A program made the position numbers and the translations under genes. The notes under the pieces were generated by a model, which was not told where the DNA came from, did not search any database, and was given only the letters and a program-made list of their open reading frames with translations. Positions 1-57,167 of a stretch of DNA of 64,000 nt are shown piece after piece (within the stretch, counting starts at the first letter, position 1; each line of letters opens with the position of its first letter). This DNA is from Simmondsia chinensis (Eukaryota > Streptophyta > Magnoliopsida > Caryophyllales > Simmondsiaceae). Where the stretch lies: NCBI GenBank assembly GCA_018398585.1, contig JAGTTD010000016.1, positions 24,537,212 to 24,601,211 of the forward strand. The letters run 5' to 3'.

Positions 1-985
1 GCCTCCAAGGGCTCCCGCATAAGAAGAGTCTAGGGGGGTAGATATACGCAACCTTTCCCCTTCAGGGAGTGACCCTGAAGAGAGGCTGCTTCCTAGGACC
101 CACAACCTAAGAAGCTGGTCCATAGCAATGAGCAAAAGACCTGGCAGTAGGAGAGCATCAAAGCATAAGTAGGCAAAACACATGGCGAGCAAAACACAGA
201 CTCAAAGCAAGCGACATCTGACACAAATCAACAGATAAGATAAAGATCAGGATAGAGATAGAGGATAGAGATAGGGAAAAAGAATAGTGGGCGAGTAGCA
301 AGTATCAGCTCATGAGGGCCAGCACACAGCCTACGTGCGCTAAGAGGACCTAGCACTAGTAAGCTGGAATATCCTACTCCAACCGGAGCATCTAATACCC
401 CTATGCTAACCCTTCATTGGGCTCTATCTAAGGTCATATCCTCCCGAAGGTTTAGGTGGGTGAGGTCTTGTCAGATCGTCTCAAGCCATCTCTTCTTTGG
501 CCTGCCTCTGCCTCTGCCTCTTCTGCCTAGAGTAGTAAGGGGCTGTTCGCATCTCCTTACTGGAGCGTTGTCCGGTCTTCTTCTAACATGTACGAACCAC
601 CTCAGACATTACTCCCTCAATTTATCTTCAATGGAGGCTACGATAATTTGCCTCTTATGATGTCGTTTCTGATTCTATCCTTCCTTGTGTGTCCTCACAT
701 TCACCTCAGCATTCGCATCTCCGTTACCTTCATCTTGTGTGTGTGCTGTTGTTTCATCGCCCTACACTCCGCCCCATACGTCATGGCTGGCCTCACAATC
801 GTCTTATAGTATCTTCCCTTTAAATTCAAGGAGAACTTTCTGTCATAGAGTACCGCGGAGGCCATCCTCCACTTATGCCATCCCGCTTTGATCCTGTTGC
901 TAACATCCTCGTCCACTTCACCATTATGCTGTATCATGGACCACGAATACCTGAATCTCTCCTTCTTCGATATGGCCTCAAATCC
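1..985 (-). mobile_element. RTE-type LINE, 3' portion (5'-truncated)
   Basis: Read on the minus strand, this is the last part of a plant RTE-like non-LTR retrotransposon: the C-terminal part of the reverse-transcriptase ORF (about 985 to 400), a 3' UTR, and at 1-130 a conserved 3' tail that runs off the window edge. The same coding region and tail occur on the plus strand at 55.3-56.0 kb, and the tail alone is fused to 5S rRNA sequences at 37.6 and 44.5 kb. The element stops abruptly near 985, as expected of 5'-truncated LINE insertions. No target-site duplication can be tested because the 3' end is outside the window. Confidence 0.8.
403..985 (-). pseudogene. RTE LINE reverse transcriptase C-terminus, decayed
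   Basis: The minus-strand reading has the family's C-terminal signature: GYYKTIVRPAMTYGAEC-like text (here YKTIVRPAMTYGAECRAM), then QQHTHKMKVTEMRMLR. This region follows the RT palm and thumb in plant RTE LINEs. An open stretch of 78 codons runs from 937 to 701. Just after MRMLR the frame is lost, and the downstream part can only be followed across several stops and frameshifts. The intact counterpart at 55.3 kb continues as WMCEHTRKDRIRN, which helps place the break. Catalytic residues lie upstream and are not present. The copy is non-functional. Confidence 0.8.
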
Positions 986-3113
986 AATCTTGATTACAAG
1001 ACATAATGAATTATTTAGTATAAATTTTTAGACTAATTTGAACAACAAATTTAACATGCATGTGACTAGGCCACTCATAAGCAAATTGCTCAATATATTA
1101 GAATTAGCTTATTTTAAATTACAATATAGAAGATTAATTAAAATATAATATATCCTCTAGCATAATCATCTATAGACGAATTCATTACATGATCAAGCCA
1201 TGCCCTAAGTTGAAATATTTCCTATAGTCATTTAAAAAATCCGGTTTGTTCGAGTTGCTTTTGGGTCATTATGGGTCCTTGCAACCAAACCCTTGACCCT
1301 GACTATTACAAAAATTTACAAAGTGAAGGTAACAAGTTCGATCGAGGTTACAAACTGAAACCTGCAAAAGAAGAAAGACAACAAAGAACAATGGAAGAAT
1401 ACCAAATATAACGTGGTTTGGACCCCAAAAACATGGTCCTTTTTCACTAACACTAGAGAAGTCCCTACAGTAGTCTCTTTTATATTGCAAATACACATTG
1501 ATTACCAACTGATAATATAAAAGCTACAAAAAAAAAATTAGGCTTCTAAAGTAGAAACCTCGTAGCGCAATCAAGGATGACAAGAGTTGTATATCATAAC
1601 CACCATAGACATACATAGAATGGGAGTAGCAGTTTTTGGGATAGGGTTTGGAAATCATTAATGAAGAACTGAGGAAGACAGAGAAAAAATAAAAATAGAA
1701 AATAGTAAATGTTTTCTCTTTCCTCAAAAAAAAATGCAAAAAGGGTTACCTTATTGTAAATCATTACCGCATATCAATCCTTTGTATTTGCTTTAAGCAA
1801 ATGAAGCTACAATTGCACCTACCCTTAGATAAAAAGGAAAACTAAAAGCACAAGTACATTGTAGAAGAATTGAAGGGTTTTTGTATATCAGTGCTAGGAC
1901 CCTTTTCTAAGCCTCGAGTCTCTTTAATTTGTAGACTAATAAGTTAATCTTGCTCCTTGCTTGGCACTGATTCCATCCTCATTCTTCCTTAAAACTCCCA
2001 TGATCTGCTTAGGCTGAACTCTAGCATTTGAAACACATGTTTGAAGTCCAAAACCTTTTTCTCATTTTCATCAACTTCTCTGTAGTTTTGTACAAGGCCG
2101 AGGTCTTATTCTATTGCATCTGTTATTTTCCTTGAATCAAGAGTTACTTTTTCAAGAGCACTCCTTGCAGCTACCTCAACCTCGAGCTTGAATCATAACA
2201 ATTGCTTCAAACGACTACTTTTCAAGGATTAGTTTATGTACTTCATTAATCAGAACAACCTCGTCCATCAAACCATTGTATTCACTAGCTATCTTAATGA
2301 TCTTTTCACATGACGGCCACTCGCCTCATTAAAAAAAATCTCATCATTTCAGTCCCTAGAGTTTGCTAGGTAAAAAATGGCCCCTTTATTTATTAGAAAA
2401 TACTCGAATTTATGGCAATGAAAAGTTGATCAGACTGCCAAAGACTACAAGGAAGTCGAAGAGGCATAGTGACAATAAAGGTCGCCTGCTTTCATGAGTT
2501 CACAAATATTGCATCCTTTGGAATGAAAATCGTTCGCCATTCTTCTTGCTTCAAACTCTCCTTTCTTACCCTAGCATCTAAACTGCTCTTTCCAAACACG
2601 TGCACTTGCTATGTTCTTTTGAATTCTTACTTTACTTCTTTCTATTTCTATCAAATCAACTCCTGATTTACCAAAGTCCAAATAGAAAAGTGGGTTTTCA
2701 TCTCTAGTGCACGAGCAAATAGCCTAGTTGAGCAGTTTATACAGTTGGTTTAGGCTGACAACATTGTTTGCTGACCAACTACCAATAGCAACCGATTTGA
2801 TCCACATTGAAGAGGTCTCCTCTTTTTAGGAAGGAGGCTCTTCTTTGAGTTCTCTGACTCTAATGATGCGTCTGACTTTCACCTGTGCCTAAGTTCCTAA
2901 ACTCCCAGACATTTTTCCAAACACGCTGGTATCGCCATTAGTAAGGTATTCCCCTCAAGAAAGAATGGGGGAAGGCCTCCCCTCTGCAAAGATGTCTCAC
3001 CTTTCAAAGGCTAGAGCTTTTAAGCATGGAATTACATCAAGTGGTTTGAGCGCCTTCATCCTAAGCTCAATGGCAAGTGGAAAAATCTTAGGATCTTCAA
3101 GGCCATTGATCAT
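986..3113. other. No gene recognised
   Basis: This is AT-rich sequence with only short chance ORFs. The stretch near 1,400-1,450 contains a 'gtggtttggacccc' motif resembling text near 5,500 and 60,530, so some of it is probably old repeat. The last few hundred bases (about 2,950-3,113) are probably part of the older LINE sequence into which the LTR element at 3,119 inserted. Confidence 0.4.
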
Positions 3114-3568: not shown

Positions 3569-3570
3569 GT

Positions 3571-3582
3571 TGGTATCAAAGC
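3571..3582 (+). promoter_or_regulatory. Primer-binding site, tRNA-iMet type
   Basis: TGGTATCAAAGC starts two bases after the LTR end. It differs at one base from TGGTATCAGAGC, the complement of the initiator-Met tRNA 3' end used by many plant LTR elements, and in particular by the gypsy element at 6.6-12.1 kb in this window. Confidence 0.8.
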
Positions 3583-6624: not shown

Positions 6625-7056
6625 TGATGCACTACACAAATTCACATAAAGATTGATAGAATGATAGATTGAAAGATAGAGATAGAAGAAGAGAAGAGAG
6701 AGAAGAGAAGAGAGAAGAAAGAGATTAGGGAAGAAGAATTGTATTAGATTTCACATAAAAAACCTAGCAAATACCTCTCCCACATATATATGGCGGCTAG
6801 AAAATAACTAATTAAAGGGAAATACAAATTAATAACTGAAAGCAGCAAAAGAAAGGGAATTCAACAGAAAATAGGTAAAGAAAACTGATATCATGTGCCA
6901 CACACGTGATCGCTGGCTGCTGAAGCTTGTGCGAGGCACGAGCGGTCCCTAACTGCCTCACGAGCTGCTCACGTGATCAGAACAGAACCCGCCAAATCCC
7001 GCCAAATCCCGCCAACTAACTTATGAATTTTTAAGTTGCAATTTTGAAGTGCAACA
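6625..7056 (-). repeat. 3' LTR of the gypsy element
   Basis: 432 bp. In element orientation it runs TGTTGCAC...GTGCATCA. It carries one extra 10-bp unit (cgccaaatcc) compared with the other LTR. A G/A-rich GAGAGAAGAG block near 6,690-6,730 is shared by both LTRs. Confidence 0.95.
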
Positions 7057-7068
7057 AAGCTCCCCCCT
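7057..7068 (-). promoter_or_regulatory. Polypurine tract of the gypsy element
   Basis: AGGGGGGAGCTT on the minus strand, directly upstream of the 3' LTR start (TGTTGC). It is the expected primer site for plus-strand synthesis. Confidence 0.8.
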
Positions 7069-7086
7069 AAAAATTCACCCTTGTCC

Positions 7087-10000: not shown

Positions 10001-10146
10001 AAGGGTGTCTGTTGCAGAGCCTTAGCCAAGGCTTTCACTCCCACTGTCTTACAATTGTTAGTGAGATTTCCTTGCAATATGTGTTGGTGTCCATTTACAG
10101 TAAATGACATGGTTAACTCTCTAAAGTTGCAATGAATATCTCCCAA
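7087..10146 (-). pseudogene. gypsy pol: RT, RNase H, integrase, chromodomain
   Basis: Continues in the gag frame after a stop. The first open segment (7975-10146, 723 codons) contains the RT (DLRSGYHQIRI, MPFGLTNAPSTF, catalytic FFDDILVYS), RNase H (IEIDACNTGLGAVLVQ and the ADALSR end) and integrase, with an HHCC zinc module (GGHSRMDATLQRLK...CHVCQACK) and the first core Asp (WTDLSMDF). After a TAA, 7567-7956 carries the second Asp (VSDRDPVFQS) and the Glu region (QTEVVNRGLETY). A TAG and a TAA follow. Then 7087-7536 holds the GPY/F module (KYFGPFQVLESIGKVAYKL) and a chromodomain-like end (VLVQWKNLPREEATWE). Catalytic residues survive, but three internal stops break the integrase region. Confidence 0.93.
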
Positions 10147-10155
10147 GGTAGTTAA

Positions 10156-11595
10156 CTATTCAATTCCCAATACCATATCACAACCCCCTAAGGGTATTAG
10201 TAGGAAATCAGAAACATAGGTCTGCCCTTGCATCTTCCAGGATAAATGCTTACATTGCTTCATACAACTGAGATTACTCCCATCTGCTACAGCCACATAT
10301 ATGGAGTTCACTGCTTCTGTTGCACACTTAAGCTTGTCAGCCGGTTTAACATCCAGAAAATTCTGAGTTGAGCCTGAGTCAATGAAGATGTGGACAGGCT
10401 TCCTCTTCAATACCCCTGTAACTCGTAAAGTCTGATAGTTACTAGCCCCGGATAGAGCATGAAGAGATATGTGTGCAGTTGTCTCTACCAATTCACCCTC
10501 CTCAGTTTCAACTTCATCTGTTTCAACTTCCTCTAACTCCTCATGGTCAATTTCAATTACGAACAATTGTGGCCCCTTAGACTTACATTTATGCCCTTGC
10601 TCATATTTCTCATCACATAAATAACACAGCCCTCTAGCTCTTTTTTCCTGTAGCTCAGCCTTAGACAACACCCTATGAGGTTTGTTGATAGGGGAGTTCA
10701 GCTGTACAGATTGAGGACTGGGCTTGGGATTGCTGTTGACTCTGCCCAATGGCTGAGGAAATCTCGGTATGTTAAGTGTTGGTAGTAAGGGAGCTCTAGA
10801 AGCCTTTAACTGCTTGGCTAAGGCCTCAACCTTAGCTTCAGCTAACTTAGCTAAGCAAGTTGCGTGTTGCAAAGTAACAGGGTGCCTTGATCGAACCTCC
10901 AACTCAATGTCCTTCCTTAAACCTGCAAGGAAACAGTTCACTAACTGGCTCTCAGACAAGTCTGCCCTCAGAGCTATAGTATCAAACTTAGCAAGGTAAT
11001 CTGGCACTATATTCTCTTGCCTAAGGTTCATCAAATCAGCCACCGGGTCCTCAAAAACATTTCCAAACCTTATCTTCATCGATACTGAGTAATCAGCCCA
11101 ACTCACCAAACTAATGTCACCCCTATGTCTCATGAACTGCTGATGCCACTGAAGGGCCAGCCCCCTTAGGTGAATCGAAGCTAATCTAACCCGATCATGC
11201 AATGGTGTATTATCGATCACAAAGAATTGTTCACATGAATAAATCCATCCATTCACATCCTCACCATAGAATAAAGGAAATTCAATCTTACCTAACCTAG
11301 TTAAGTAAGCATTGTTACCCCCATTCACAGCTGCTGATGCTGTTGGAACCTCTGAAGCTGAACGATTCACCACTAGAGAGTTAGATCCTCCTTCTGCAGT
11401 TGCTCCTCGATCAACCAATAATCTCATATGCTGAGACATCTGCCTCATCAGCTCATTCATTGTCTGCATTGTATTTTTTATCTCACGCACCTCCCCAGAT
11501 AGGAATTCGACCCTATCATTGGTTGACTGCATCTGGCCAGCAAAAGATTCCTCAACCCTTCTAATTTCAGTCACCGATCTAGTGTTATCAGCCAT
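10156..11595 (-). pseudogene. gypsy gag-protease, ended by a premature stop
   Basis: The frame opens with ATG at 11595 (MADNTRSVTE), just inside the primer site. It encodes 479 residues: a coiled-coil-like N-terminus (about 5-60), a retrotransposon Gag domain (about 110-270, with LASIHLRGLALQWHQQF), and a CCHC-type zinc knuckle (CYLCDEKYEQGHKC). It then enters the aspartic protease with active-site FIDSGSTQNFL. It ends at LGIE followed by TAG, where relatives normally have Trp before the LxTLG motif. The next residues (LTTLGDIHCNF) continue in the same frame, so a single base change splits Gag-protease from RT. With readthrough the polyprotein would be nearly whole. Confidence 0.93.
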
Positions 11596-11631
11596 TATTA
11601 AGATTCAATTACCCACAGTCAGAGGAACGAA

Positions 11632-11643
11632 GCTCTGATACCA
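11632..11643 (-). promoter_or_regulatory. Primer-binding site of the gypsy element
   Basis: TGGTATCAGAGC on the minus strand, one base inside the 5' LTR. It matches exactly the sequence complementary to the 3' end of initiator-Met tRNA, the primer commonly used by plant LTR elements. Confidence 0.9.
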
Positions 11644-11644
11644 A

Positions 11645-12066
11645 TGATGCACTACACAAATTCACATAAAGATTGATAGAATGATAGATTGAAAGATAGA
11701 GATAGAAGAAGAGAAGAGAGAGAAGAGAAGAGAGAAGAAAGAGATTAGGGAAGAAGAATTGTATTAGATTTCACATAAAAAACCTAGCAAATACCTCTCA
11801 CACATATATATGGCGGCTAGGAAATATCTAATTAAAGGGAAATACAAATTAATAACTGAAAGCAGCAAAAGAAAGGGAATTCAACAGAAAATAGGTAAAG
11901 AAAACTGATATCACGTGCCACACACGTGATCGCTGGCTGCTGAAGCTCGTACGAGGCACGAGCGGTCCCTAACTGCCTCACGAGCTGCTCACGTGATCAG
12001 AATAGAACCCGCCAAATCCCGCCAACTAACTTATGAATTTTTAAGTTGCAATTCTGAAGTGCAACA
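11645..12066 (-). repeat. 5' LTR of the gypsy element
   Basis: 422 bp, TGTTGCAC...GTGCATCA in element orientation, next to the primer site. It differs from the 3' LTR at about eight scattered positions, mostly transitions. Confidence 0.95.
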
Positions 12067-20889: not shown

Positions 20890-23805
20890 TAGAGGTGGCC
20901 AGGGGCCGGGCCTAGCCCACCGACCGGCGGCTGCCCCGCCCCTCCTTTTGTGGTCCAAACCCTTTTGTTTTCAATTTAATATAACTTGTAAAAATACAAA
21001 ATACACATTGGTTTTGTCCAAAAAATAATTATAATTTATTGATGATTAATATAACATACAAATACAATACAATATAATCACAAATAATGGTAAATATAGC
21101 TAATAAAATAAAATGTGCCATAAATTATTAACAAATACAACTACACCATTTAAAATTGTAAATATATTCCATAAAAAAATACTATAGAGAAATAGAATTA
21201 CAATAATATGAATAACTTAGTCTAAGCAGGCAGGGGTTGGTGCGCCGGAACTTGACGTATCGGTAGTACGGTTGTCTTCATCCTCGCTCGATGAACCCAA
21301 CTTCAGCTGGTCTTGCTCCCTATGCACTGCTTGCTGCCAGTCCTTCATGTACACTGACATTTCCAAGTTGGACGATGATAGCTTTGCTCTTTTGGTTCCA
21401 AGCAACTTGGGTGTGCTACTGAAGACACCGGACACGCTTGTATATCCCGTGCCATGGTGGAAAGCATGAGAGATTGGGTTTGATTGGAACACCGTCATTG
21501 CAAAATATCAAAGTGTGGACTCGCCGGTGTCGAGAAGAACTGAAGCATAGGCGAGCGCAAGTAATAATCTAACTCGTCACATGATGTGGGATTTTTTTTG
21601 GGCTTGAATCCGTCCAACATCTCCCACGTATATGATTTTTCTCCGAAACTACAACTAGATATGGAAGAACCATGTGATGTGAAAGAAACGTGTGGATTAT
21701 CAGCTGATAATTTGTGATACAAGGAAAATAATTCATGTAAATTGGCATCGACTTCCGCAATAAAAGATGTGTCATCAAAAGTTGGATTTAATTTTTGGTA
21801 AAAAATTTTGCAAACAATTGCAAACATGTAAGTTTATAACGGGGATCCAAAATGGTGCAAAACAATAAGTAAGAGGTAGTTCAAAATAACATTTAACAAA
21901 TTTTGCCTTCATTGCGGCAATAGAGGCCTCCAACACGGAGTTAGATTGGTTATCTGACATCCAAGCAACAATTTCTATCACTCTAGATATTGCTTGTGGC
22001 ATGGTAGGATAATAACAACCAAAAAAAAAAGTCACAAGGTCTCTAAACATACAAAAAAATTTACAAATTCCGCTAATTGTATCCCAATTTACTGTGTTCA
22101 AATTAAAAGCCCTTCTGAACGACTATCCTATACAAATTCAATTAATATATCTTTATAGGATAGTAATCTTTCTAACATGTCTACTGTTGATGACTACCTA
22201 TTTTTTGTATCTAATTTAAATTGTATATATTGAATACCATGCGTGTCACAAAGATTTTTAAATCTTTTTCTTCTAGTTTCGGATGATTTGATTGCTATAG
22301 TTACTTCTCTTAAACACTAAAGAGAAGTTCGTATTAGCTCCAAACCATTAGTTACCATTAAATGCAAAAAGTGAAAACATTTTCCACCTAACATGGGTCT
22401 CATGTGCTCAATTAATTGTTTTACAGATGCGCTGTTGTTTGTAGCGTTGTCGAAAGTAATGCTAAAAATTCTGCGCTCTATCTCCCACTCTCGGCATGCC
22501 TCCATAGTGGCACCCATGATTATCTCAGCAGTGTAGGGATAATCTACATGGCAAAAATGAATTATTCTTTTTTGCATAATAAAGGAAGAATCTATCCAAT
22601 GTGCCATTATACGCATGAAAGGCACACCGTGTTTCAACCTCCATGTGTCGGACATCAACGAGAACATGCTCGTGTTCATCCTAAAAATGTCTACAAGCTC
22701 ATTTTTTATTCTATAAAATTCTTTAAATACGTCTCGCTTGAAAATGTTCCAAGAAACCCTTACGATGACGGGGTTTAATGCGTTTTGGCAATACCGGAAG
22801 AATCTAGGGTCTTCGCAGGTGTAAAATAGCTTTTCAGCCCCAATGACATATCTTACTAATTCTCGCCTATTGTTTTCTTGTGAAAACCTAAAGCTATCAA
22901 GCGCACCGGTCACTTACTGTACTAAATGTTGTTGGGATCTATCTGGGTCTAGTTCGAGGCAGCTTATCACTAGATTTCTTTTTTAACGTGCCTGTCTCAT
23001 CACCACGTGAATGACTAAAAACTTTCGGGGGGTCACATAATTTACAATATGCTTTATTATGTGCAAAATCTAGTGTAAAGTACTTCCATACCTCACTAGT
23101 ATTATGCCTACTACTAGTGGTGGCGTGGGTTTCAATCTTGGTGTTGGTGGGTGTGGGTTCTTCTTCGATTTGTAAAGTTTGAGCACCCCCGATTTAGGAA
23201 AATTCTGGTCATGGTAGTACTGTTATTGCTTCTCTCAATTTAAAGTGTCTGTATAGGAAGGTGACGGATCAGGTTCTAAAAATGTTCGCTCCCGGATATT
23301 AAGTTCGACAACTGGTCCTAGGAATTTTAGGCGGTCTTGAATAGCTTGAACTAGATTTACATGCTCCAGATGAAGATGAATTGTGTGCCATGTTAGTATT
23401 ATTGATTATTAATTAAAAAATGCAACTAAGAATGCAATTTCTATAAATAAAAATGACAAATAAATAAAATTTCGATACTAAATTTATTGAAGCGAAAACT
23501 AAAATTTGAACTTCTACGAACAAAACAAATTGCAACTTCAAACTTAAAAAATTTAGAGCAAATTTAGAGCAAATGTAGAGAAGAGAAAATTGGATTGAAA
23601 GATTGTTGTGATGAAATGAGAAATTTTGATTAGTATTTATAGGAAAAATTTTATTTATTTATTTATTTTATTTTGAATTACCACACCCCCCCCCCCAGCC
23701 GTTGGGGGGCAGGCCTAGTCTGGGCCTAGCCTAACCTGGGTAAGGAAGGACAGGGCCGGGCCCCGCCCACTGGCCCCCTCTATGAGCAGTATTCTAGCCA
23801 CTTTA
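20890..23805 (-). mobile_element. hAT (Ac-like) DNA transposon
   Basis: A 2.9-kb element with GC-rich ends in an AT-rich setting. The left end is TAGAGGTGGCC followed by GGGGCCGGGCC-type repeats; the right end has GGGCCGGGCC repeats and finishes GCCACTTTA. Such ends, TAGnGGTGGC plus subterminal GGGCCGGGCC, are typical of plant hAT elements. It contains a broken hAT transposase on the minus strand. No convincing 8-bp target-site duplication is visible (ttgaggag and gagagcaa flank it), so the exact ends are tentative. Confidence 0.8.
21217..23391 (-). pseudogene. hAT transposase, broken by stops and frameshifts
   Basis: A plausible start is ATG at 23391 (MAHNSSSSGACKSSS), a serine-rich N-terminus. 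Around 23,060 the text KYFTLDFAHNKAYCKLC is the second half of a BED zinc finger. The catalytic core follows at 22317-22913 (SDTWRLKHGVPFMRIMAHWI, RIIHFCHVDYPYTAE, SITFDNATNNSASVKQL, GGKCFHFLH), matching Ac/hAT cores with an Asp in the ITFDNA block. Then come 21775-22101 and 21495-21827 (CDELDYYLRSP...FDIL, the start of the dimerisation region), and 21217-21498 (KLLGTKRAKLSSSNLEM, YMKDWQQAVHREQDQ), the hATC end. Frame changes and stops separate these blocks, so it cannot encode a working enzyme. Confidence 0.88.
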
Positions 23806-37313: not shown

Positions 37314-37622
37314 AGCACGATGGCAATGTATTTGTTTTACTTAATACTACCATGCATTTTCTCAAACATGTTACTTTCATCTCACAAGCCACTAATTTTA
37401 ATTTCTTCGGGTTTTTTTTTAATTTATGAAATTGTAATAATATGATTCAATATTTGTACCATAACTATCATCAATATTTGTACCATAACAATCTCAAAAG
37501 AAAATATTTTTTTGAGAATGATCACTAGCTTGGAGGATAAACGTCATAGGGTAGGCCACCAACTTTTTCTAGTAACGCGGGTTTTAGACCACACTAACAA
37601 AATTAAAGTAACACAAGTTCAA

Positions 37623-37897
37623 AACAAAAAAAGCAACATTCTCAATGCCCCAAGAGCTCTCGCTTAAGCAGGGCCGGGGGGTTTTTTTTTTTTTGGGGGG
37701 GGGGGGGGGGGGTACGCACCCTTCCCCTTTCAGGATGTTATCCTGAAGGAAGGCTGTTTCCGAGAACCCCCAACCTAAGGGGTGCAACACAAAGACTTCC
37801 CAGGATATCACCCATCTTGGTACTGCTCTTGCCCAAGCACGCTTAACTTCGAAGTTCTAATGGAATCCAATGCTTGCATGTTTGTACCCTTTTAGGT
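37623..37897 (-). mobile_element. 5S rRNA-headed SINE, copy 1
   Basis: A minus-strand 275-bp element bounded by the perfect 10-bp duplication acaagttcaa (37613-37622 and 37898-37907). Its first 120 bp (37778-37897) are 5S rRNA-like from the first to the last nucleotide, including the A-box text AGTTAAGCGTGCTTGGGC; the C box is mutated (GATGGGTGATATCC). The remaining 155 bp match the 3' tail of the RTE-type LINE seen at 1-130 and 55.9 kb (TTAGGTTG, then CGGAAACAGCC and CCTGAAAGGGGAAGG), here expanded by C and A runs. It lies about 880 bp downstream of the DUF1666 stop codon. I interpret it as a SINE3-type element using the RTE LINE machinery. Confidence 0.88.
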
Positions 37898-37907
37898 ACA
37901 AGTTCAA

Positions 37908-38774
37908 GACACACAAGGAAAAAAAAGCACAATTAGATAAAATACAGTCGTATAAACTATAACGTATCAATTTGCAAAAGAAGACATACCCGGTTTGTAC
38001 TTTAGCTCTGCCGATAATTATCGGAAAAAAAAAAAAGAATAAACGCTGTTTGGGATCTTCAATCTTAATAAACTGTATACATATAAATTGCTCAAAAGAT
38101 TACTGACGGTGTATGATCTCTCTATATATTATACAACAATATGTTTATTCTATACAACAACATATACATATTTATACAAGTATTATGATAAAGTCGAAGC
38201 GTAAATAGTAATCCTAATATTATCTATACATGGAAGAAACCTATGTGCATAACAAAAATCGCTTGCCCTACTCATGCTTTAACCACCTCAACCAATCGAC
38301 CACAGCAAAAATATCTTAAAAGGACATTATATTTAAAATATTATGCAAGAAAAGCCATAATATTCACCATATACAGAATAAAATAGGCAAAATTTATTTT
38401 CTCAAATAAAGTTAAAAGTAAAGTTTAGGCCCTTTGTATCCTTCTTTTTATTTGTAATTTTTGCTTTTCTGAAAACTAAAATCCAAGTTCTGAAAACTGA
38501 TATTTCTTGTTTTTGAGTCCCTGTTTCCTAGCACAGTTAAAAATTCAAATAGGAAAACATAAACAAGAACAAATCGATTTCAAAACATTGATTTTTGTTA
38601 CTCAAAACTTAAAGCTACAAACCGAAAGTATATGTTCATTGTGTTTAAAAAAAAAACAAGTTTAGCTTTCTTATATATATAATAAACATTATGTCTTTTT
38701 CGTTAAGCTTCTCGAAAACAATGCCCTTTTAAGATATCTTTGCCGACCAGAAGAAGAAAACATCCCTCCCTCAA
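37908..38774. other. No gene recognised (downstream of DUF1666 gene)
   Basis: Contains the presumed 3' UTR and terminator region of the DUF1666 gene next to 38,774. About 38,420-38,620 holds 'ctgaaaactaaaat / gttttcag'-type palindromic text like the MITEs in the gene's introns. Confidence 0.4.
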
Positions 38775-41700
38775 CTATGAACACGGAAACAGCAAAAAAG
38801 AAGGTTCTACGCGAATTTTCTTCCCTAGAAAGTTGATTTTGCTAAGTTTTTCGGTACACCAAATTAATTGGTCAGAAGTGACCCTTGACATATTCAGAAC
38901 CCTCCAAACCAATTTCATATCAACTTGTGAAAAGAAATATAAGACGTGGTCAGAGTTGTCTTCCTCATGATGCTTTTGAAACTTCCTTAATATGCATTTT
39001 TCACTCTTTACCAAGTCTTTCAGCTTCTTTTCCTTCTGCATGGCCATGACAAACTAGGTCACTTTCACACTCAACAATAAAAATAGAGGTCTGTTTGGTA
39101 TCGTTTTCGGGTTCTTGCTTTTTGGGTTTCGGCAAAACTGAAAACTAAGAGACTATTTAGTATCGTTTTGTGTGTGTAGTTTTTGATTTTTTTTTTTTTT
39201 TTTTTTTTTTGAGGGGCTGAGATCCATATTTCGGAAACGGAGTGATTTAGATTTTTGGTTCCTTATTTTCAATTTTTTCCTAGTTTGACTGACAACTAGG
39301 TCACTTTCACACTGAACAACATAGAAAAAAGCTTATTTGGTATCATTTTTTGCCTATAGATTTTTGGGTTTTGAGTCACATAACTGAAAACTAGGTTTTT
39401 GGTTTTTAAAAGAAATGAAAACCATATTTCGAAAATGGTTTTTCACGTTTTTGGTTCCTTGTTTTAGTTTTTCCTACTTAAATTGAAAGCTGAAAATAGA
39501 AAAAATTATTTTCCAAACCTAGTTTTAGTTTCTAAGAAACCAAAAGGGATATCATACAAGGCCCAAGTTTTCGCTATAAGTTCTTTATTCTTTGAGTGAA
39601 AACTGAAGACAGGAAACTAAAAATAAGAAAAAAAAAAATCATTTTCAAAATTTAGCTCTTGAATTTTCAAAAGACAAAAGCGGTAAGTAGAAAACGTGTT
39701 TTATTTATGGGAGACGGGGGGACCTGTTCCGGTACAATGTTTTGAATTCTACTTTCTTACAATTCCACCAGAATTATTTATCTAATGAATTTTGAATTTA
39801 TTGTGGAATTCCTTTTAAATCTAAATTTATTCGATCAACCGATCTATATATAGTTTACTCATAGAATATATGGGTCCAATGAACCCGTGTTAGATCGACC
39901 AAAACCGGAAAATTTTTTGTCTGAACCCAACCCAAATTATGACATGATCTAACGTGGGTCATGACCCGAGTCAAACAAGCATTGTGCAATGACTTAAGAC
40001 TCGTTTCTTCACCCGAGTCATGAGGTAACTAGTGAAAGATCGAGACTAGTTTTGTGGACAGTGTTATCTAAAATGCATAAATATGGTATTTTATTTACTA
40101 TAATATATTTATAAATGTATTTATATTTTACAACTATTAATTACAATTAATACTTGTGTGATTATCTATTCAAATTTTGCAACTATGAAGTTCAAAAGTA
40201 ATTTATATTCCCTTTAAAGCCCCAATGTTATCAGTGTGGCTCATTGTGTAACATCCCTGACACTGCAACTGTAATAGTTACGCAACCATGAACCACGATA
40301 TGTGTCCATGGTGCCAAACTGCGGATCCAAAATTCGGATCATACATTTCCAAATCAAAGACATTGATTCAATGCATCAAAACACGTGCTCAACAAGGATG
40401 GCAATGGCACTCGAACCTATCAGATGTCCCATTCACCCAATCCATTTTATGGCACATTTAGATGCAAAAAATAGGCTTAGATTTCGAGACTAATAAATGA
40501 GTTTCGGAAACTTGACCCAAATTCGACCTATTTCCATCTCTAGCACTAAAGCAACAAACTCATCAAAAATCTAACCTTTTGAAGGGTGGATTGGACTTCC
40601 ATCAAAAGCTTGTTGTCTGCAGGATTCTGCAGTACGACGTTAGGCCCTCTTCGACACCTGGAATTCCCGTCTTGGGCTTCTTTATCTTTTCGAACAAACT
40701 GCCAAAATACGCGTATCGATTCTTCAACGATTTCCACTAGCATTGAACTTGTTATCGCGTCTTTCGCTCTCCCCATTCTCTTCTCCTTCTTTCTATTGTC
40801 CTCTGCAATGAAGCACAACACGACATGATAGTGAGCCATGAATTTTACTTCGGGGTCTTCTTCAAACAGCTTAGAATTATCTATATAAATTCAGGTGAGG
40901 TTTTAATTAGTAAGCAATTGACATTAGCTGAAATAGCTCACTATATTTACATGTTATGCTTAGCTTATCCTATTTTTTTCGATATTGGACAACACTTTCT
41001 AATTTACATGAGGGACCTTAAATGTTTTGAAACATATGCAATAAACTAATGTTGTCATCTTTTAGCCAATTTTAAGGAACCAATTCTTCCAGAAGTTTAT
41101 GTCAATGGATAAAGGCTTGTGAAAGGTTATATATTCTAATAAGACATGTCAGGCAAATGCCCATTGGCCTCTAAACGTGAATATTACACACGTCCATCTC
41201 ATACCTTGTGCTTCAATATGTTAGTTTAAGAATGTGGCTATCAGGATTCAAACCCGTGACCTCTTGATCAATGAGGCTCTGGTACCATGTGAAGGAATCA
41301 GCCCCCTCAAAAGTTCAAACCGGTGGTTTTATAGTCCAAAAACCAAAGTAGAATTATTATGATGAAAAACATGGTTCTAAAATAGGGAAATTGACGAGAA
41401 TTTAGGATATTCATAGGTACAGAAGACTTTTGTTTCAATCTTTTGTCAAAAAGGGGTAGTATGTTAAAAAAAAGAGGATAAGAAGAGCAATATGTTTCAT
41501 AAATACATATAAGAAGCAAAAGAGTTTAGCTAAGTCTTTATGCCTACCTGGCTAGTCTGATCAAGATTGAGACTGATAGACCCCTTCAAAACATATCGTC
41601 CAAATCAATGAAACTTTTGAAACCTACTATTTCTTTTCTGGCAAAATCAACCAAGCCTACGTGGTCACGACATGTTGATATTGATTGAGTTAGTTAGAGG

Positions 41701-44700
41701 AACCAAAGCGTCATGAAGCAGCAAAGAGAACTAACCTCGTATAACGGGAACTTGGAGTAAATTACGAAGCGCACATCGATTCCTGACATAATGTTGGACT
41801 CTAGGGCCTTGAAATGGCTCGTCCTCTACAAATCTATGTAGAAGAACCTGAAACTGCTGGAACTCTTCCGCGACTTCATTGTAACTACGTACACTATGTG
41901 GATCAGAATCCCATAACTCGAGCGCCTTGGCATACTCCCAACTTAGGAATTCCCAAGACAAGCACATTTGTCCCACGTAAATCATCTCGAGATCACTCTC
42001 CAAGTCTCTCGAGAATCTTACCATTCGCTTTTGTACTTCTGATGATTTGGGCTTGCAAGGCCAACAATCTAGGGAGATAATCGTTGATATCATTGGCGTT
42101 GCTGAGATTTTCATGTTTGTTGATTGGATCGAGTTCTTACGCCGAAGAAAGTCTGCATATATAATTCCGTGAATTGAATAAGCAAGCACGGACATGTAAT
42201 TGTCATTAAGGATCTGTTTATTTCGACAAAAATATTTGTTTATCTCAATTTCTATTGTTTCTTTGCATAATTTCATAGCAAAAACCACGAATATGGAAAA
42301 TATTCTCCTTCAATGGGGGGAATTCACTTCCTTTCAACGAAAAGGGAAAACATTTTCCTTCATAGAGGAAAAAATGTTTCCATCGTAATATCACATCACA
42401 TGCTTCACTTCAAACTCAATTTGGCCAAGCATAGCATCATGCAAATTAATAAAATCAAACCATTTTATTTAACTAGAAAGATTTAAGAAAAATTTATTTT
42501 TAAATGAAAATATTCTATGGAAAAAGGTTTTCTAGAAGGAAAATTTTCTCCGATGAACCAAACGGAGCCCAAATAATGAAAATGAGTCAAACTATCACAT
42601 TGCGAGCATGCAATTTCGAGATCTGTGACTGCAATCACGTTGAAGTACCAGGTGTTGCAGATGCTACATTCACAGTCAATCACGTTTTTCTTTTTTCTAA
42701 ACGAGATATAGGTTTCCATTGAATCACATTTACAATTAAAAAAAATTGAATGAAAAGTACCTATTTATTAATTTCAATATCCCTCTGATAATCTCTTCAA
42801 ACCAATCTAAAGGTACTTTTTTTTTTTTTTTTTGATAATTACCAATCTACAAGTATGTGTCGACAAATAAACACATACATACATATGACGGGGCCATGAC
42901 AAAAGCATTGTCACATAACAGTCAATATCATAACAGCTAACTCAAAATTTGGCACTTAACAATCATTATGTTACACAACACGTCCCCTTGACTCTAGGTT
43001 TACAACTACAGTCTGGCAACAATCGAGACCAATTATGTTACATCTTGTGCAACTCTACAATCGCAACTGCGATTTAAAACCATGATGAAAAGTGGGTTAA
43101 AAGCAAAATTCAATAGTGAGTTAATTAAGGGCTGAAAGAAGAGGCCATAATTAGTCACTTTTCCACAAAGCATAGCCAAAAAGTAAGCACTCATGAACCT
43201 AAAAAACACACTTTCTACTGCAACAAATATTTTTTGCATTTAATTAGTATTACAGTTAGGATAAAAAGGTTCATTCAAATAAAGAAAATATATTAAATGC
43301 CATAAACTTTATGTGGAGAGTGGTCGGCTAAAGAAAGGCATAACTGTTTATAGAGAAAGTCAAGGCAAAATTAGTCAGACATGCACAGAAATAAACTGAA
43401 AGCAACCATTAAAGAAAAAGTAATGATGTTTGCTGTCGTTTTTAGTTTATATTTTCTGGTTTTGAAAAATTAAAAATCAGGTTTTGAAAACAATTTTTTC
43501 TTTCTTTTTTTTTTGGTTTTTTTTCCATTAGAAAAAGGCAGGAAAAAAAAAATCATGACTCGAACATAGTTTTTCATTTCTCAAAAGCGAATCAATAGAA
43601 ATATAAAGCAATAACAAACAGACCCTAATATTATACAAAGAAGAGTAAATATTGTTAGAAAAACAAGAAATGAATAAAACAATCAGTATAGCATTGGTCC
43701 CTCAACTTTTTCCGTGTGTACACATCACTTAATTTTATATGCTAAGTGAATCCCTCAACATACGTATAATTATCCTTATTAAAAGCTCTACCAACGACTA
43801 GCAACACCTATAAAGACAACATTTACCTCCACAGAAACAAAGTTTGACTTCTTATCACGTCAACTTCAATTAGGCAAATTCACAAACCGAAACAAAACTA
43901 TATAAGTAAATAATTTTCCTTAGCCGAACAAAAGAAAATTTTGAAGAAAAAACTAATTTTATTTGGAAATATTTTGAAAATAAAAAGTAACAAAAGGGAA
44001 AATGTCTACCGCATAAAAAAGGCAAGTTAGGTCTAAATTCAATTGAATTTAGTGGATAGTGAATCTTCAACTAACTTGAATACTTTTCAAAGTTGGGGCC
44101 TTAAGAAATTATCAAAGATGTCAATTTTCATGCCTTTTTTGTGGAATCTCAGTGTGTATGCAGGGAAAGCCCACTTCACCAAAAAAAGAGTATGAAAGCT
44201 TGCCAAAACATTTTTTTATGTATCCGAAAGCTCCTTGTACTTTGCTCACTATGTCAAATTAGTCCTATGGTGAAATTGAAGTTAAGTTCTAGTCATGTCA
44301 GATGCAACACAAGCTCACCTATCGACCTAATTCAAACTCACTCATAACTCGACTATTAAAACTCTTGTTGTGTACTGAACATCATTTTACTCTTGGACTT
44401 AATTGATACAGTACAAATTATAGAAGGATAAATCAACACAATTAAAAGTATAAGGACTAAAAAGCAAAAGCAATATTCCCAGTGCCCTAAGGGCTCCCGC
44501 CTAAGCAGGGTCGGGGTGGGGGGGGGAAGATTGTACACAGCCTTCCCCCTTCACCCTCAAGAGAGGCTATTTCCGAAAACCCCCAACCTAAGGGGTGCAA
44601 CAAGAGGACTTCCGAGGAGGTCACCCATCTTGGTACTAATCTCGCCCAAGCACGCTTAACTTCGGAGTTCTAATGGGATCCAGTGCTTGCGTGTTGGTAC

Positions 44701-47399
44701 CCTCTTAGGTAATTGAAAGTATAAGGATTAAACTAACATAATGGGTAAAGTACATGGACCTATAACATAAATAACCCAATTTTTCTAATTATCAATCTTT
44801 TTTTTAATCACATTATTCAACATCATTTCAAGTAAGTGATGCTTCTCGCCTATACCAACTAACACAGTTAACTTCATAATTAGGTGCACCCCCCACCAAT
44901 TGCTTCTATTCTAACATCTTTAATGAAAGTGCATTGGATTTTTTAGCGATAAAAAGTTGCTTTCAAGCCCTATGTTTACAAAGATTTGAATGAAAAGCAC
45001 CACAACCAATAATTTTAAAGCTCTTTTAATAGTTTAGATATGTAAGCACTGTTATAAGCATGTTATAACATGAGAAACACTCCATAATTTATTAATGACT
45101 AGTAGATATAATAACCAAAGTTAAAACAAAAGATGAGTGCTTATTGATATTTTAAACTCAAGTTGTTTATTTTCCCTCTTAAATTATTTGAAAATAGGCC
45201 AAAATGCCTGCAAAGGGCACTTAGTAAGAGAAAAGGGTTAGAAACGACTTTGTATTTCATAAATACATGAAAAAGTAAAAAAAAAAAAACCAAGGGCAAA
45301 CATTAAGAGGTCTCAATTGTACAGTAACAGGCTCTATAGATCGTCTTATGCAAAGCCGAAGATACTAACAAGCATAAAACCAAATAGAGACCGTTACATG
45401 ATAGATTTTGAGCTAACTGTTATACGATTGGTATCAACACTTTCCCATTGGCCTTCATAATGTACATATGATGTATTTTATTTATTAGAAAATGTCTACA
45501 AATGCATTTACTGGCTGAACACAATCAAAGGAGTACGAATGAACGGTTGCATGATTATCATTTATATTTTTTGCAAGTTATAAGCAACTTATGAAAAAAC
45601 TCAACATCATCTGCAACCCATTATAGCAAATACACGACATCACAATGCAACCATGAACTGTGATCTGATTCCATGACAGCTCGTAAATAAATCAAGAGAG
45701 ATTAGCAAATTAGCAAAGAAACTGACCTAGAGCATACTTCTTTTGATAATTGAGGATGTCAAATTTTCTCATCCTTTCTCTGTAGCTCTTATAGAACTTG
45801 TGCAGCTCACCAATGGTACCTTCATTCTGAAACTTCTCATCTATCTTCCATGGCTTCAAACCATCCATTATCTTTGGTGACTCGGATTCTTCTAGAATAG
45901 TAGGAAGCCCTATCGCCCTCACCTTCTTTATCTCCATTTTCAACTGATCTACTAAATCTTGATGCTCCCACAAGCTCTCGAGCTCGTTCGCATCCTCAGG
46001 ATTCGAACCCGACATTTCCTTTGGATTCTGGTTTGTCCTCAAAGTTCCATTTTGCTCATTTTCTACATGGACTTCAATGTTTTTAAGTTCGTTCAATATG
46101 TCCTCGTCTTCATCATCAAAATCATCAGTTTCATACCCTTTGTTCAAATTTTGCAACTCTATATCTTCTTTTGACATAGCAGCCTCATCGAATTCGACTT
46201 GTTTAGTATCAAATTCGTTCTCGAAATCGCTATCTGACAAAAACCCATCACTAATAGAATCGATAAAAGAGCTTCTCAAGGAGAATTTGCTACTAGAAAA
46301 AATGGACTCAGAATCAGAATATGATGATACTATTGACTCGTCTTCTTCAACAACAACCTCGAGCTTCTTCATACCCTCTTTATCATTTCTCAAATCACTC
46401 ATTAGCCCATCTTCTTTCTCACAATGATCCACAACAAAGTTCTCATTCGCATCACAATTAGAAACTAATACCTCCGAATCGATTTGCAACTCATCTTCCT
46501 TGGCCAAAATCTCATCACTTACAATCCTATGAACATTGTGAAGAGAATTATCATTTGATTCTTTGTATGAGCCTTTATCAACATCAGGATTCGAAACTTC
46601 TGAATGCTCTTGGGAATTTTCATGATCATCACAATGTTTAATCTGATGAGCTTCATCATTAAGAGGGTGTTCATCATTTTCAACCGTGCTAATGAATTCT
46701 TCATAGGTCGGAAACCGAAATTGGAGAAAAGACTTGGGTTCCTCTCCTTCATTTGAACCCTTTGAATCTATGGGTTCCTCTCCTTCATTTGAACCCTTTG
46801 AATCTAAACTACTAATTTTGGCTCCCTCTTTTTCATCAAACCCAGAAAAATTTGAACCATTTGAATCAAAAACACCATTCTTGGATTCCATCTTCCCTTT
46901 GATGCTGTATGAATCACTTGAATAATCTGTTGGTTCAAGTGCCTGCGAATTGGAGCTTCGCTTTCTATAAATGTAACTGTCCCAGAATCTGCAGTTCAAA
47001 ACAGAAAATTATAAGATTGGAATTCTATGAACTTGCATACATATATGTATAATTGAGTTAAGTTTATTCAAATTGGTGCCTCTTCTTTTCTTAATTCAAA
47101 ATAGTCCTAATGTTTGTAACCGTGTTTAAATTAGTCCATTTATTTCGTTGTTTAAAATAGTCCCTCACCGTTCGGTGAATAACACTAGGAAAATTAAAAG
47201 ATGAGAAACTAATATGAAAAACTTAAAAACATTAGAGACGACCCGAATATATAACTCAAGTATAATCAGAAAATTGAAAGCTAAAGTACCTGAACAGCCA
47301 ATGATTGAACACGCCAAAGAGGGTGGTAAACGCAGAAACCCACAAAACCCTAAAAAAGAAAACAAATTTCCGGGAAAACAAACCCCAAAATGATCCCAT
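38775..47399 (-). CDS. DUF1666 family protein (annotated elsewhere as 'ribosomal protein L34Ae'), five exons
   Basis: Plant-specific protein of unknown function; the ribosomal name is not supported by any motif here. Coding exons: 47290-47399, 45727-46988, 41736-42152, 40576-40802, 38775-39035. All introns are GT-AG, phases agree, and the sum is 2,277 nt (758 residues plus stop). The start is ATG at 47399 (MGSFWGLFSR), giving a hydrophobic N-terminus (residues about 12-37, with AFTTLFGVFNHWLFR), possibly a membrane anchor. Exon 2 is acidic and Ser/Glu-rich (residues about 40-400) and ends in the conserved LPTILEESESPKIMD and ELHKFYKSYRERMRKFDILN. Exon 3 has SDLEMIYVGQMCLSWEF, NEVAEEFQQFQVL and LRNLLQVPVIR; exon 5 has YFFSQVDMKLVWRVLNM and ends RVEPSFLLFPCS. 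All conserved blocks are intact, so it is probably functional. Intron 2 (3.6 kb) hosts several transposons. Confidence 0.93.
39053..39560. repeat. Duplicated MITE-like segment in intron 4 of the DUF1666 gene
   Basis: Starting 18 bp upstream of exon 5, the text ctaggtcactttcacact occurs at about 39,054 and again about 242 bp further on. Each copy is followed by 'tttggtatc(g/a)ttttt' and a 'ctgaaaacta' palindromic stretch. The outer ends look like hAT-type MITE ends. This is a tandem or double insertion of one family. Confidence 0.65.
42816..42840 (-). mobile_element. Ultra-short LINE 3'-end insertion in intron 2
   Basis: Only AATTATC plus about 17 A on the minus strand. It is flanked by near-identical 15-bp direct repeats (accaatctaaaggta at 42801-42815 and accaatctacaagta at 42841-42855). 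AATTATC is the terminal sequence before the poly(A) of the L1 at 32,459 and nearly that of the element at 49,620, suggesting aborted reverse transcription of the same family. Confidence 0.55.
43428..43626. repeat. MITE-like palindromic segment in intron 2
   Basis: Inverted 'ttctggttttgaaaa / ttttgaaaacaa' text and an end reading aataacaaacagaccc, resembling the 'ggtctgtttggtatc' end at 39,090. It belongs to a family with several copies near this gene. Confidence 0.5.
44232..44758. mobile_element. MITE in intron 2, split by a 5S-headed SINE
   Basis: The left end (tccttgtactttgctcac, then tatgtcaaattagtcc) and right end (reverse complement: ccatgtactttacccattat, then gttagtttaatcc) are inverted repeats of about 35 bp. 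The interior at 44459-44710 is the inserted SINE. A relative with the same ends lies at 51283-51748. Confidence 0.7.
44459..44710 (-). mobile_element. 5S rRNA-headed SINE, copy 2
   Basis: A 252-bp minus-strand element, flanked by a 19-bp duplication with two mismatches (aattaaaagtataaggact at 44440-44458 and aattgaaagtataaggatt at 44711-44729). The first 120 bp (44591-44710) are 5S rRNA-like over the full length of the gene. Both internal promoter parts are preserved: A box AGTTAAGCGTGCTTGGGC and C box GATGGGTGACCTCC. The last 132 bp are the RTE LINE tail (TTAGGTTGGGGG, CGGAAATAGCCTC, GGGAGCCCTTAGGGC), ending GGGAATATTGCTTTT. Head length, start base and junction are the same as in copy 1. It sits in the same orientation as the host DUF1666 gene, nested in a MITE. 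Confidence 0.9.
46736..46807 (-). repeat. Perfect 36-bp in-frame tandem duplication in exon 2
   Basis: Units 46736-46771 and 46772-46807 are identical, doubling the 12-residue string containing DSKGSNEGEEP in the acidic region of the DUF1666 protein. Confidence 0.95.
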
Positions 47400-50976: not shown

Positions 50977-52598
50977 ATGGTCCTTGAGTTTTCCTCATCG
51001 ACAAAACAATGGGTCATAAAAAGGAATAGAGAAGAAAGGTTCAAATTGATACACGAAAATTGTTCAAAAAACAGGGTAAATGTATAAAATTTTCTTGTTT
51101 TTTCTAGTTTATTTTCAAATTTTTTAATTTATTTTATTTTTTAATTAATTTTTTTTATCAAATAATTTAATTTATTTGTAAGGGAGTTAAGTGTTTGATT
51201 TTATTTATGAGGAGAGTTCTATTTTTAATGGAAAAAAAAAAGAGTTTTTTTGTAATTTATCAAAAAAGGGGTTATTTACATAAAATATTCCTGTACTTTT
51301 TTTTATTGTGTCAATTTAGTCATTTTACTTCTAATTGTATTAATTTAGTTCTTCTAGAATTTATAATGTGTCAATTTAGTGCTTTAGTCAAATTCAAGTT
51401 AAATTATTAAAGTAATTTTTTTAACAGCACAAGCACATTGATGCAAGTATCCACTACGAATAAATCCATTGACTCACTTTAACTCAATCCATGGTCAAAC
51501 TGTTAAAAGTTTCTTTAAGAACTTAATATAAATTTTACTATAAGGACCAAATTGACATAATTTTAATTATAGAGGGACTAAATTGATATAATTTAAAGTA
51601 TAAAACTATTAAAAGTTTCATTAAGCACTTAATATAAATTTTACTATAAGAACCAAACTAACATAATTTTAATTATAGGGGAATTAAATTGACATAATTA
51701 AAAATATAAGAATTAAATTAATACAATATAAAAGTACAAAAATATTTAGTATAAATAATGAAAAAGAAATAGTACATGAAGACAATCTCATTTTCTTGTT
51801 TGATAATGAAAAAAGAAAAGAAAATGTGTCACCCATAAACACACGCGTATACTATTGAGAAGAATATTAGCCATACGTGTGGTCCTGTCTCCATTTGACG
51901 TAAATAATTAGAAAAAAGAAAAAATTATTTCAAAAATTTAGTTTTTAATTTCTCATAAAATAAAAAATTATAACATAAAATAATATAAAATATGCCTCTA
52001 TATATATCAATAATATTTGTACGCTATTTTTATAACAACAGAGACAAGACAACAATCCAAGTGTAACAAGGGCTTCCGATGAGTAAGGTTTAGAAAATAA
52101 GATGTAAACCGTCTTATCCGACGTTTAAATGTTTAAAAATATTTCTTTTCTCAATAACTTCAACAATCTTTTTTTCATAACTTTTTTTTACCTGATTTAG
52201 GAAATTGATTTTACTATTTCAATTTATATTAGATTGAAGTTGAAAATGTCAATTCATCCTAATGGTGGAAATAATTTTGCTTGATTGTTATTTGTAATAA
52301 ATGTATGAGAATGATATAAATAAGGCGAAAACGATATCTACCAAACTAAAGGAAGCCTTTATTTGATAGATTACAACTATTTCTTACATCTTCTTTTATA
52401 AAGAATGTATTACATATAAAGAAATATATTATCGTTGTGGCAACTCATAGAGGAATTTCGTAATTATTATTCATTATAAGTCATATTATTACTTTGACCG
52501 TAATATCTATTGTCATATATGTTGTTATTATTAGGACAAAAAAGATTACAGTAAGAATAATGATATGACTAATAATAAATACTAGCCACAAATTTTTA
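50803..52598. other. No gene recognised; MITE and A/T runs
   Basis: Very AT-rich. Contains poly-T/poly-A runs at about 50,907-50,976 and a MITE listed separately. Confidence 0.4.
51283..51748. mobile_element. MITE with internal tandem duplication
   Basis: Ends are inverted repeats (aaatattcctgtactttt left; aaaagtacaaaaatattt right) extending into 'attgtgtcaatttag'-type text. Inside, a unit with 'cttaatataaattttactataag' recurs after about 107 bp. It shares 'gtactttt...tgtcaattta' ends with the MITE at 44232-44758. Confidence 0.65.
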
Positions 52599-55067: not shown

Positions 55068-55282
55068 TTAGGTACCTTGAGGTTTAACCAAGTATCATCT
55101 AGGTATCCTGACAATTCATTATATATAATAATGTACCTTGAGATTTAAATATTTTTCGCTTAGATACCCTATATTGAAATTTGAAAAGTTTTCGTAAGGA
55201 TCGGGATGATTTTATACAAAAAATGCTAATGTGATACATGATTACGATAATATATATAAGCCACATCAATGTTTTCAGTAAG

Positions 55283-56006
55283 ATGGTATGGGGCGGAGTG
55301 TAGGACAATGAAACAACATCATACACAAAAGATAAAGGTGGCAGAGATGAGGATGCTGCAGTGGATGTGTGAACACACAAGGAAAGATAGGATCAGGAAC
55401 GACGTCATAAGAGGTGAATTAGGCGTGGCCTCCAATAAGGATAAATTAAGGGAGCAACGTTTGAGGTGGTTCGGACATGTTAGGAGGAGACTGAGTACCG
55501 CTTTGGTCAGGAGATGTGAGCAGCCTCATACTACGCTAGGTAGGAGAGGGAGAGGTAGGCTAAAGAAGAGATGGTTGGAGACGATCAGACAAGACCTCAC
55601 TCACCTAAACCTTCGGGAGGAGATGACCTTAAATAGAGCCCAATGGAAGGCTAGCATAGGAGTAGCAGCTGTAGTGGAGTAGATTTGGGTAGTCCAACTT
55701 CTATGCTATCTCTAGTATTCTAGGCCTTTAGCGCACTTATGTGCGATCTGAGCTCCTGATTAACTAGTTATTCATTAGCTTATTTACGATCTGCTATGTC
55801 TATGCCTTTATTTGCTTAGCTTTGCCCTGCTTATATGCTTATTGACTCTTGTGCTACCAGGTTGCCAGGCTTCATTGCTGCGAACAAGTTTTTCAGGTCG
55901 GGGGTCCTCGAAAACAGCCTCCTTTCTGGGCAACCCCCAGACGGAGGAAGGTTGCGTACATCTACCTCCTAGACCCCGCATAAATCTACATTTTTAAAAA
56001 AAAAAA
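55283..56006 (+). mobile_element. RTE-type LINE, 5'-truncated, with poly(A)
   Basis: Contains the terminal 130 or so codons of the LINE ORF, a 3' UTR, the conserved tail (55,895-55,985: ggtcgggggtcctcg, aaaacagcctcc, gaaggttgcgtac, ccgcataaa) and an A tail to 56006. The truncation point is at the GAECR motif. The tail is the same unit that forms the 3' half of the 5S-headed SINEs and the tail of the LINE at 1-985. Confidence 0.85.
55284..55682 (+). pseudogene. RTE LINE reverse transcriptase C-terminus, open to the natural stop
   Basis: The frame is open from the truncation (WYGAECRTMKQHHTQK) through RMLQWMCEHTRKDRIRN, LREQRLRWFGHVRRR and RRGRGRLKKRWLETIRQDL to the TAG after AAVVE. This is the usual C-terminus of plant RTE LINE proteins. 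It is a gene fragment without catalytic residues, but it has no internal stop, so the insertion is fairly young compared with the copy at 403-985. Confidence 0.85.
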
Positions 56007-56863: not shown

Positions 56864-56917
56864 GACTTCTACTTTTACTTGATTCTATAAATATTGTTCC
56901 CCTTTTTTGCTTTTACG

Positions 56918-57055
56918 GTTGGAGGTCTTTCAGAAATAGCCTCCCTTTAGGGTAGCATCCTGTAGGTGTAAGGCTACGTACATCTCACTCCTCTTAAACC
57001 TTGACTTGGCGGGAGCCTTTCAGGCATTTTGAGTTTGTTGCTGCCACTGTTGTTG
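56918..57055 (+). mobile_element. RTE LINE/SINE tail fragment
   Basis: Plus-strand text ggttggaggtctttcag, aaatagcctccctttaggg, taaggctacgtacatct, cgggagccttt, ending in TTG-rich sequence (gttgctgccactgttgttgtt). This is the same 3' tail as in the RTE LINEs and 5S-headed SINEs. No 5S or tRNA head precedes it, so it is a severely truncated copy. Confidence 0.7.
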
Positions 57056-57167
57056 TTAAGGAGGACTGATTATGTTGATAGAGATACACCATAGCGACAG
57101 CAAGTTATGGTGAATAATGACGAAGGTTGACCATGGTGGTGAGATGAAATCATATATGAATGGCAAT

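Follow-up and report, generated by a model that had tools for sequence, protein, structure and literature searches.

Two probable copies of a plant SINE with a 5S rRNA-like head and an RTE LINE-type tail in Simmondsia chinensis

Two related insertions on the minus strand of a 64-kb stretch of Simmondsia chinensis DNA (the window) are very probably copies of a plant SINE, in which a 5S rRNA-derived promoter head for RNA polymerase III (Pol III) is joined to the 3′ recognition tail of a LINE of the RTE clade. Judged from the sequence, the best reading is that of a 5S SINE mobilised by an RTE LINE, putatively transcribed by Pol III and carrying a rebuilt 5′ leader. The first base, the 5S-like head, the head/tail junction and the 3′ tail are common to both copies. 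When the elements were searched against the 64-kb window with blastn, two copies were found. The proposal of a SINE family rests on these two copies with their shared derived features. The copies, their parts and the related LINE pieces are given below.

37627..37897, minus strand: proposed SINE copy 1, 271 bp by the longest-duplication parse
37613..37626, no strand: target-site duplication of copy 1, 3′ side, 13/14 identical
37898..37911, no strand: target-site duplication of copy 1, 5′ side, 13/14 identical
37886..37897, minus strand: leader of copy 1, first 12 nt, non-5S (Rfam and alignment)
37779..37885, minus strand: 5S-like head of copy 1, element positions 13-119 (Rfam, 47.5 bits)
37627..37778, minus strand: RTE-type tail of copy 1, with an internal poly-C/poly-A expansion (blastn and alignment)
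44462..44710, minus strand: proposed SINE copy 2, 249 bp by the longest-duplication parse
44440..44461, no strand: target-site duplication of copy 2, 3′ side, 20/22 identical
44711..44732, no strand: target-site duplication of copy 2, 5′ side, 20/22 identical
44699..44710, minus strand: leader of copy 2, first 12 nt, non-5S (Rfam and alignment); pairs with the junction at 44586-44596
44592..44698, minus strand: 5S-like head of copy 2, element positions 13-119 (Rfam, 70.4 bits)
44462..44591, minus strand: RTE-type tail of copy 2 (blastn and alignment)
1..1027, minus strand: LINE_A, 3′ part of a decayed LINE assigned to RTE; broken frames, then the tail (111-1), cut by the window edge
55260..55985, plus strand: LINE_B, 3′ part of a LINE assigned to RTE; open frame 55260-55682, tail from about 55895
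56917..57059, plus strand: LINE_C, tail assigned to RTE, ending in a TTG-rich stretch

Limits and surroundings of the two insertions

Each copy is flanked by its own target-site duplication, as the preliminary description of this DNA had held. The duplications are of 14 nt in copy 1 (13 identical) and 22 nt in copy 2 (20 identical), and both abut the first base of the element exactly. Random flank pairs from the window, which were free of the requirement to touch the 5′ end, scored at least as high in 3 of 2000 cases for copy 1 and in 0 of 2000 for copy 2. The minus-strand orientation and the 5′ ends proposed earlier, at 37897 and 44710, were borne out, and the duplications do place the 5′ end at the same base in both copies. 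The 3′ limits proposed with them (37623 and 44459) were moved to 37627 and 44462 by the longest duplication. Comparison of 600 bp on each side of copy 1 with those of copy 2 gave chance-level pieces of resemblance only (best E 0.19). Since each copy has its own duplication and the flanks are unrelated, the copies are separate insertions and not one segmental duplication, which upholds the earlier claim of two independent events.

5S sequence in plant retroelements is best known from Cassandra, according to PMC7215508 and PMC10853983, and the copies might be degenerate pieces (solo LTRs) of Cassandra or of another LTR element containing 5S. Such an explanation is extremely improbable. A repeat search of the window (minimum 40 nt, seed 14) gave no LTR pair, in line with the earlier statement that LTR features are lacking, and the sole direct-repeat family over the copies is the copy pair itself (D3). 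The Cassandra primer-site motif TGGTATCAGAGC occurs five times in the window with at most two mismatches, but at least five occurrences were obtained in 33 of 100 shuffles; the nearest match lies 952 nt from copy 2 and has two mismatches. LTR elements of the Cassandra kind make 5-nt target-site duplications, whereas 14 nt and 22 nt are seen here. A LINE tail, moreover, makes up the other half of the element.

Copy 2 lies in sense orientation between two coding segments of a gene for a DUF1666-domain protein (41731-47008, minus strand), and is probably intronic. Frame 41731-42309 of this gene matches the domain at E 9.4e-42. The relatives of frame 45710-47008 carry DUF1666 as well, and the named ones among the 120 relatives listed are from flowering plants. 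Several of the best relatives of this frame, from Nepenthes, Amaranthus, Saponaria, Bienertia and Ancistrocladus, are Caryophyllales, which makes this order likely for the host; the best named match in another search was from Sesamum.

Several other features were observed in the window. A Gypsy-type LTR retrotransposon is present at 6625-12066; its two repeats, 6625-6924 and 11645-11944, are 99% identical, and positions 11632-11643 form a perfect TGGTATCAGAGC primer site. A 106-bp unit occurs twice head-to-tail at 51497-51708 (89% identical), and 3155-4686 holds a set of direct repeats spaced by about 1160 bp (81-94% identical), which resembles a tandem duplication. The open frame 22317-22913, which appears to resemble a piece of a hAT-type transposase, gave no Pfam match.

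The 5S-like head and the LINE tail

Two gathering-score Rfam matches were obtained in the whole window, each to 5S rRNA (RF00001) and each inside one copy: 37889-37779 in copy 1 (47.5 bits, E 8.9e-7) and 44704-44592 in copy 2 (70.4 bits, E 8.1e-13). Element positions 13-118 align without gaps to a plant 5S reference sequence, which also served for the difference counts. Box A lies at element positions 50-61 in both copies (37837-37848 and 44650-44661), and box C of copy 2 lies at positions 80-92 (44619-44631), 18 nt beyond box A. Both boxes of copy 2 fit the motifs printed in PMC7215508. In copy 1 box A is intact, and box C is altered and no longer fits the motif. The boxes keep their 5S distances from the first base of the element. 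Copy 1 is probably dead.

The heads of the two copies agree at 103 of 118 positions. Downstream of the leader (position 13 onwards), seven differences from the plant 5S reference are shared by both copies, and the private differences number 11 in copy 1 (nine of them transitions) and three in copy 2. The shared differences, together with the leader and the junction, point to one master element for both copies. Two one-off chimeric retrocopies would need no SINE master, the LINE enzyme having switched template to 5S RNA on two occasions. LINE enzymes can produce template-switch chimeras, and only two copies are seen. However, the junction, the non-5S leader, the first base and the seven differences from the plant 5S reference are the same in both copies, and a pair of one-off events is accordingly judged very improbable.

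The tail had been described as the 3′ end of an RTE-type LINE, and this identification holds, as the tail recurs three times in the window, twice behind RTE protein remnants. Blastn of the elements against the window placed these further tail copies at 111-1 (minus strand), 55895-55959 and 56917-56981. In LINE_A, decayed frames such as 1027-701 (minus strand) precede the tail, and the coding regions of LINE_A and LINE_B are mutual repeats (I2, 84%; I3, 87%). In a five-row alignment, clear similarity of the tails begins at about CTTAGGTTG, immediately after the 5S end. The tail of copy 1 is 80.6% identical to LINE_A over 67 nt, and 76.9% identical to LINE_B and to LINE_C over 65 nt each. Copy 2 is 71.4% identical to LINE_A over 112 nt and 86.5% identical to LINE_C over 37 nt, and gave no blastn match to LINE_B. 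At identities of 71-86%, the LINEs in the window are all too distant to include the actual partner. The poly-C/poly-A expansion in the tail of copy 1 corresponds in copy 2 to just a shorter C run.

The LINE_B frame, when searched against proteins, matched 66, of which the best named ones are from Nicotiana and one carries PF00078. Among these relatives, some from Cuscuta, Solanum and Stephania bear the name reverse transcriptase or endonuclease-reverse transcriptase. In Pfam the same frame gave a match below the cut-off only (DUF5358, E 0.085). The RTE assignment therefore rests on the protein relatives, on the C-terminal sequence of LINE_B, which appears to be that of the family, and on the TTG-rich end of LINE_C; by these characters the LINE pieces are assigned to the plant RTE clade. 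TTG or TTGATG repeats are reported at the ends of plant RTE LINEs (PMC3747384).

The two copies show three of the features by which SINEs in general are defined, namely a head from a small RNA gene transcribed by Pol III, a 3′ tail shared with a LINE, and flush target-site duplications of variable length. Copies were also sought in sequence collections without plant genomes. Three pattern scans of viral contigs gave 0 matches, and so did a strict junction pattern in genome contigs. A looser junction pattern matched 14 genome contigs, all 14 titled as bacteria; about 12 matches are expected by chance for 20 specified bases and 26 gap lengths on both strands of 257 billion bases of even composition. 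The 14 bacterial loci were rejected as copies of the element and attributed to chance, the best E by blastn being 0.25 among the matches listed.

The 5′ leader

In the preliminary description the head was 120 bp of 5S beginning at gene position 1. That extent has to be corrected: bases 1-12 are replaced, and the element is 5S-like only from base 13. The leader of copy 2 reads ACCTAAGAGGGT and that of copy 1 ACCTAAAAGGGT, with one base different between them, where the plant 5S reference has GGATGCGATCAT. Independently of this reference, the Rfam match ends 6 nt (copy 2) or 8 nt (copy 1) before the 5′ end of the element, and after the first few bases near this end 6 and 8 positions of the model, respectively, are skipped. 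Since the leader equals in length the 5S stretch that it replaces, the first base lies at the Pol III start distance from the boxes. This explains why the start had been read as 5S +1; of that reading the start-site distance stands, and the 5S identity of the first 12 nt does not. An origin of the leader from the flank of either insertion was ruled out, as the duplications are flush and different from each other.

The leader of copy 2 is the reverse complement of ACCCCTTAGGT, which spans the 5S/LINE junction, with one extra A. Leader and junction pair over 7 + 4 bp with one bulge. The pairing partner is partly LINE-derived; the pairing thus arose after the fusion of 5S and LINE, or is due to chance. 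Among all 65536 8-mers, 50 contain at least seven contiguous bases of the junction complement. In a sample of 18258 12-mers from the window, 25 pair with the junction as strongly as the leader of copy 2, and 372 as strongly as that of copy 1. When random 8-mers were placed before GGGT (20000 draws), the pairing of copy 2 was matched by 2.75% of them at uniform composition and by 1.1% at AT-rich composition; for copy 1 the values were 25.7% and 15.5%.

Folding of the heads gave a similar picture. The copy 2 head has a closing helix of 7 + 4 bp (11 bp) and folds at -40.2 kcal/mol (z -1.96), with 7 of 200 shuffles as stable. In copy 1 an outer helix is kept, but the fold as such is unremarkable (z -0.35), with equal stability in 69 of 200 shuffles. 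Because copy 1 has lost much of the pairing, the case for a paired leader rests on copy 2. When the full-length RNA of copy 2 was folded from its seventh nucleotide on, it did not exceed shuffles in stability (z -0.54; 63 of 200 as stable) and showed no 5S-type domain. In all three folds that began at 44704 or 37889, this one included, and thus omitted 6 or 8 nt, stability was likewise within the range of the shuffles (63, 126 and 171 of 200 as stable).

The leader also bears on the source of the head. The SINE might be real and its head derived from a Cassandra LTR instead of a 5S gene, with the leader and the shared 5S differences inherited from Cassandra. In favour of such a source, the seven differences from the genic plant 5S reference are common to both copies, the 5S stretches of Cassandra LTRs are mutated and branch apart from genic 5S (PMC3095306), and Cassandra is widespread in plants (PMC10886601). 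The leader, however, pairs with LINE-derived bases, and in a flank taken from Cassandra such pairing would be a coincidence. A Cassandra-derived head is considered unlikely.

5S boxes drive transcription by Pol III via TFIIIA and TFIIIC. In the proposed cycle of the 5S SINE, these factors would bind the internal boxes, and Pol III would start at a fixed distance upstream, corresponding to the first base shared by the copies, and stop in the T-rich tail. The RTE LINE protein would then recognise the tail and, by target-primed reverse transcription, copy the RNA at a nick in the target. The LINE enzyme is described as being recruited to this reaction by the LINE tail that a SINE RNA carries (PMC3747384). 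Pairing of the leader with the 5S/LINE junction would rebuild the terminal helix of 5S in a shifted register. As to how the leader arose, a speculative and rather doubtful proposal is that first-strand cDNA synthesis ended close to 5S base 13, whereupon the cDNA folded back and used its own junction as template. It is also a matter of speculation whether Pol III began, at the fixed distance, within foreign DNA that adjoined a 5′-truncated 5S copy, in which case the pairing may have been selected or be accidental.

Relation to known elements and implications

The nearest design found is that of springhare Ped-1, which also combines a 5S head with the tail of an RTE-clade element (BovB), as listed in Table 1 of PMC3747384. 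Ped-1 is a rodent element, likened here by the description of its design, and an independent origin is presumed. SINE3 and other 5S-headed SINEs of fish and moths likewise join a Pol III head derived from 5S to a LINE tail. In fish and other vertebrates, the tails of SINE3 elements or DeuSINEs are of the CR1 or RSg-1 type (PMC3747384), in contrast to the RTE type seen here. In the broad sense of SINE3, that of a 5S-derived head with box A, intermediate element and box C, the present element is included, copy 2 with boxes A and C and copy 1 without an intact box C. In the narrow vertebrate sense, which according to PMC3747384 asks for a CR1-type tail, it falls outside, the tail being shared with the RTE LINE pieces of the window.

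Among plant elements, the TS SINE of tobacco resembles the present copies in its tail, which is almost the same as that of an RTE LINE, with TTG repeats at its end (PMC3747384); its head is tRNA-derived, unlike the 5S head described here. Another plant group, the Angio-domain SINE superfamily, is distinguished by a 3′ Angio-domain of 37 bp. Cassandra is a plant retroelement that also has a 5S-derived Pol III promoter (PMC10886601 and PMC7215508). It is an LTR element with a primer site, whereas the present copies have no LTR pair and end in a LINE tail. In a literature search mainly of openly accessible papers, no 5S-headed plant SINE was found, and the family may already have a name, for example in Repbase or SINEBase. 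Plant SINEs are stated to derive from tRNAs in PMC9033089. PMC3095306 places 5S-homologous sequences among SINE3 'including plants', and cites the Cassandra paper for that. AnnoSINE searches by structure for tRNA-type boxes A and B and drops candidates nearly identical to Rfam RNAs (PMC8825457). A plant SINE with a 5S head would suggest that the tRNA-only rule for plant SINEs is partly a search bias.

A wider reading would make this the first 5S-headed plant SINE family, independent of animal SINE3, with a founder that rebuilt its 5′ end by cDNA fold-back, so regaining a closing helix as well as the exact start distance for Pol III, and with such SINEs as a possible source of the Cassandra 5S. 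Taken as a whole, this is unlikely. An origin of Cassandra by insertion of a 5S SINE into an LTR has been speculated upon (PMC10886601), and a 5S plant SINE would be a concrete plant candidate for that founding step. The leader, in turn, would provide a testable case of a SINE acquiring a new 5′ end without a change in its start-site distance.
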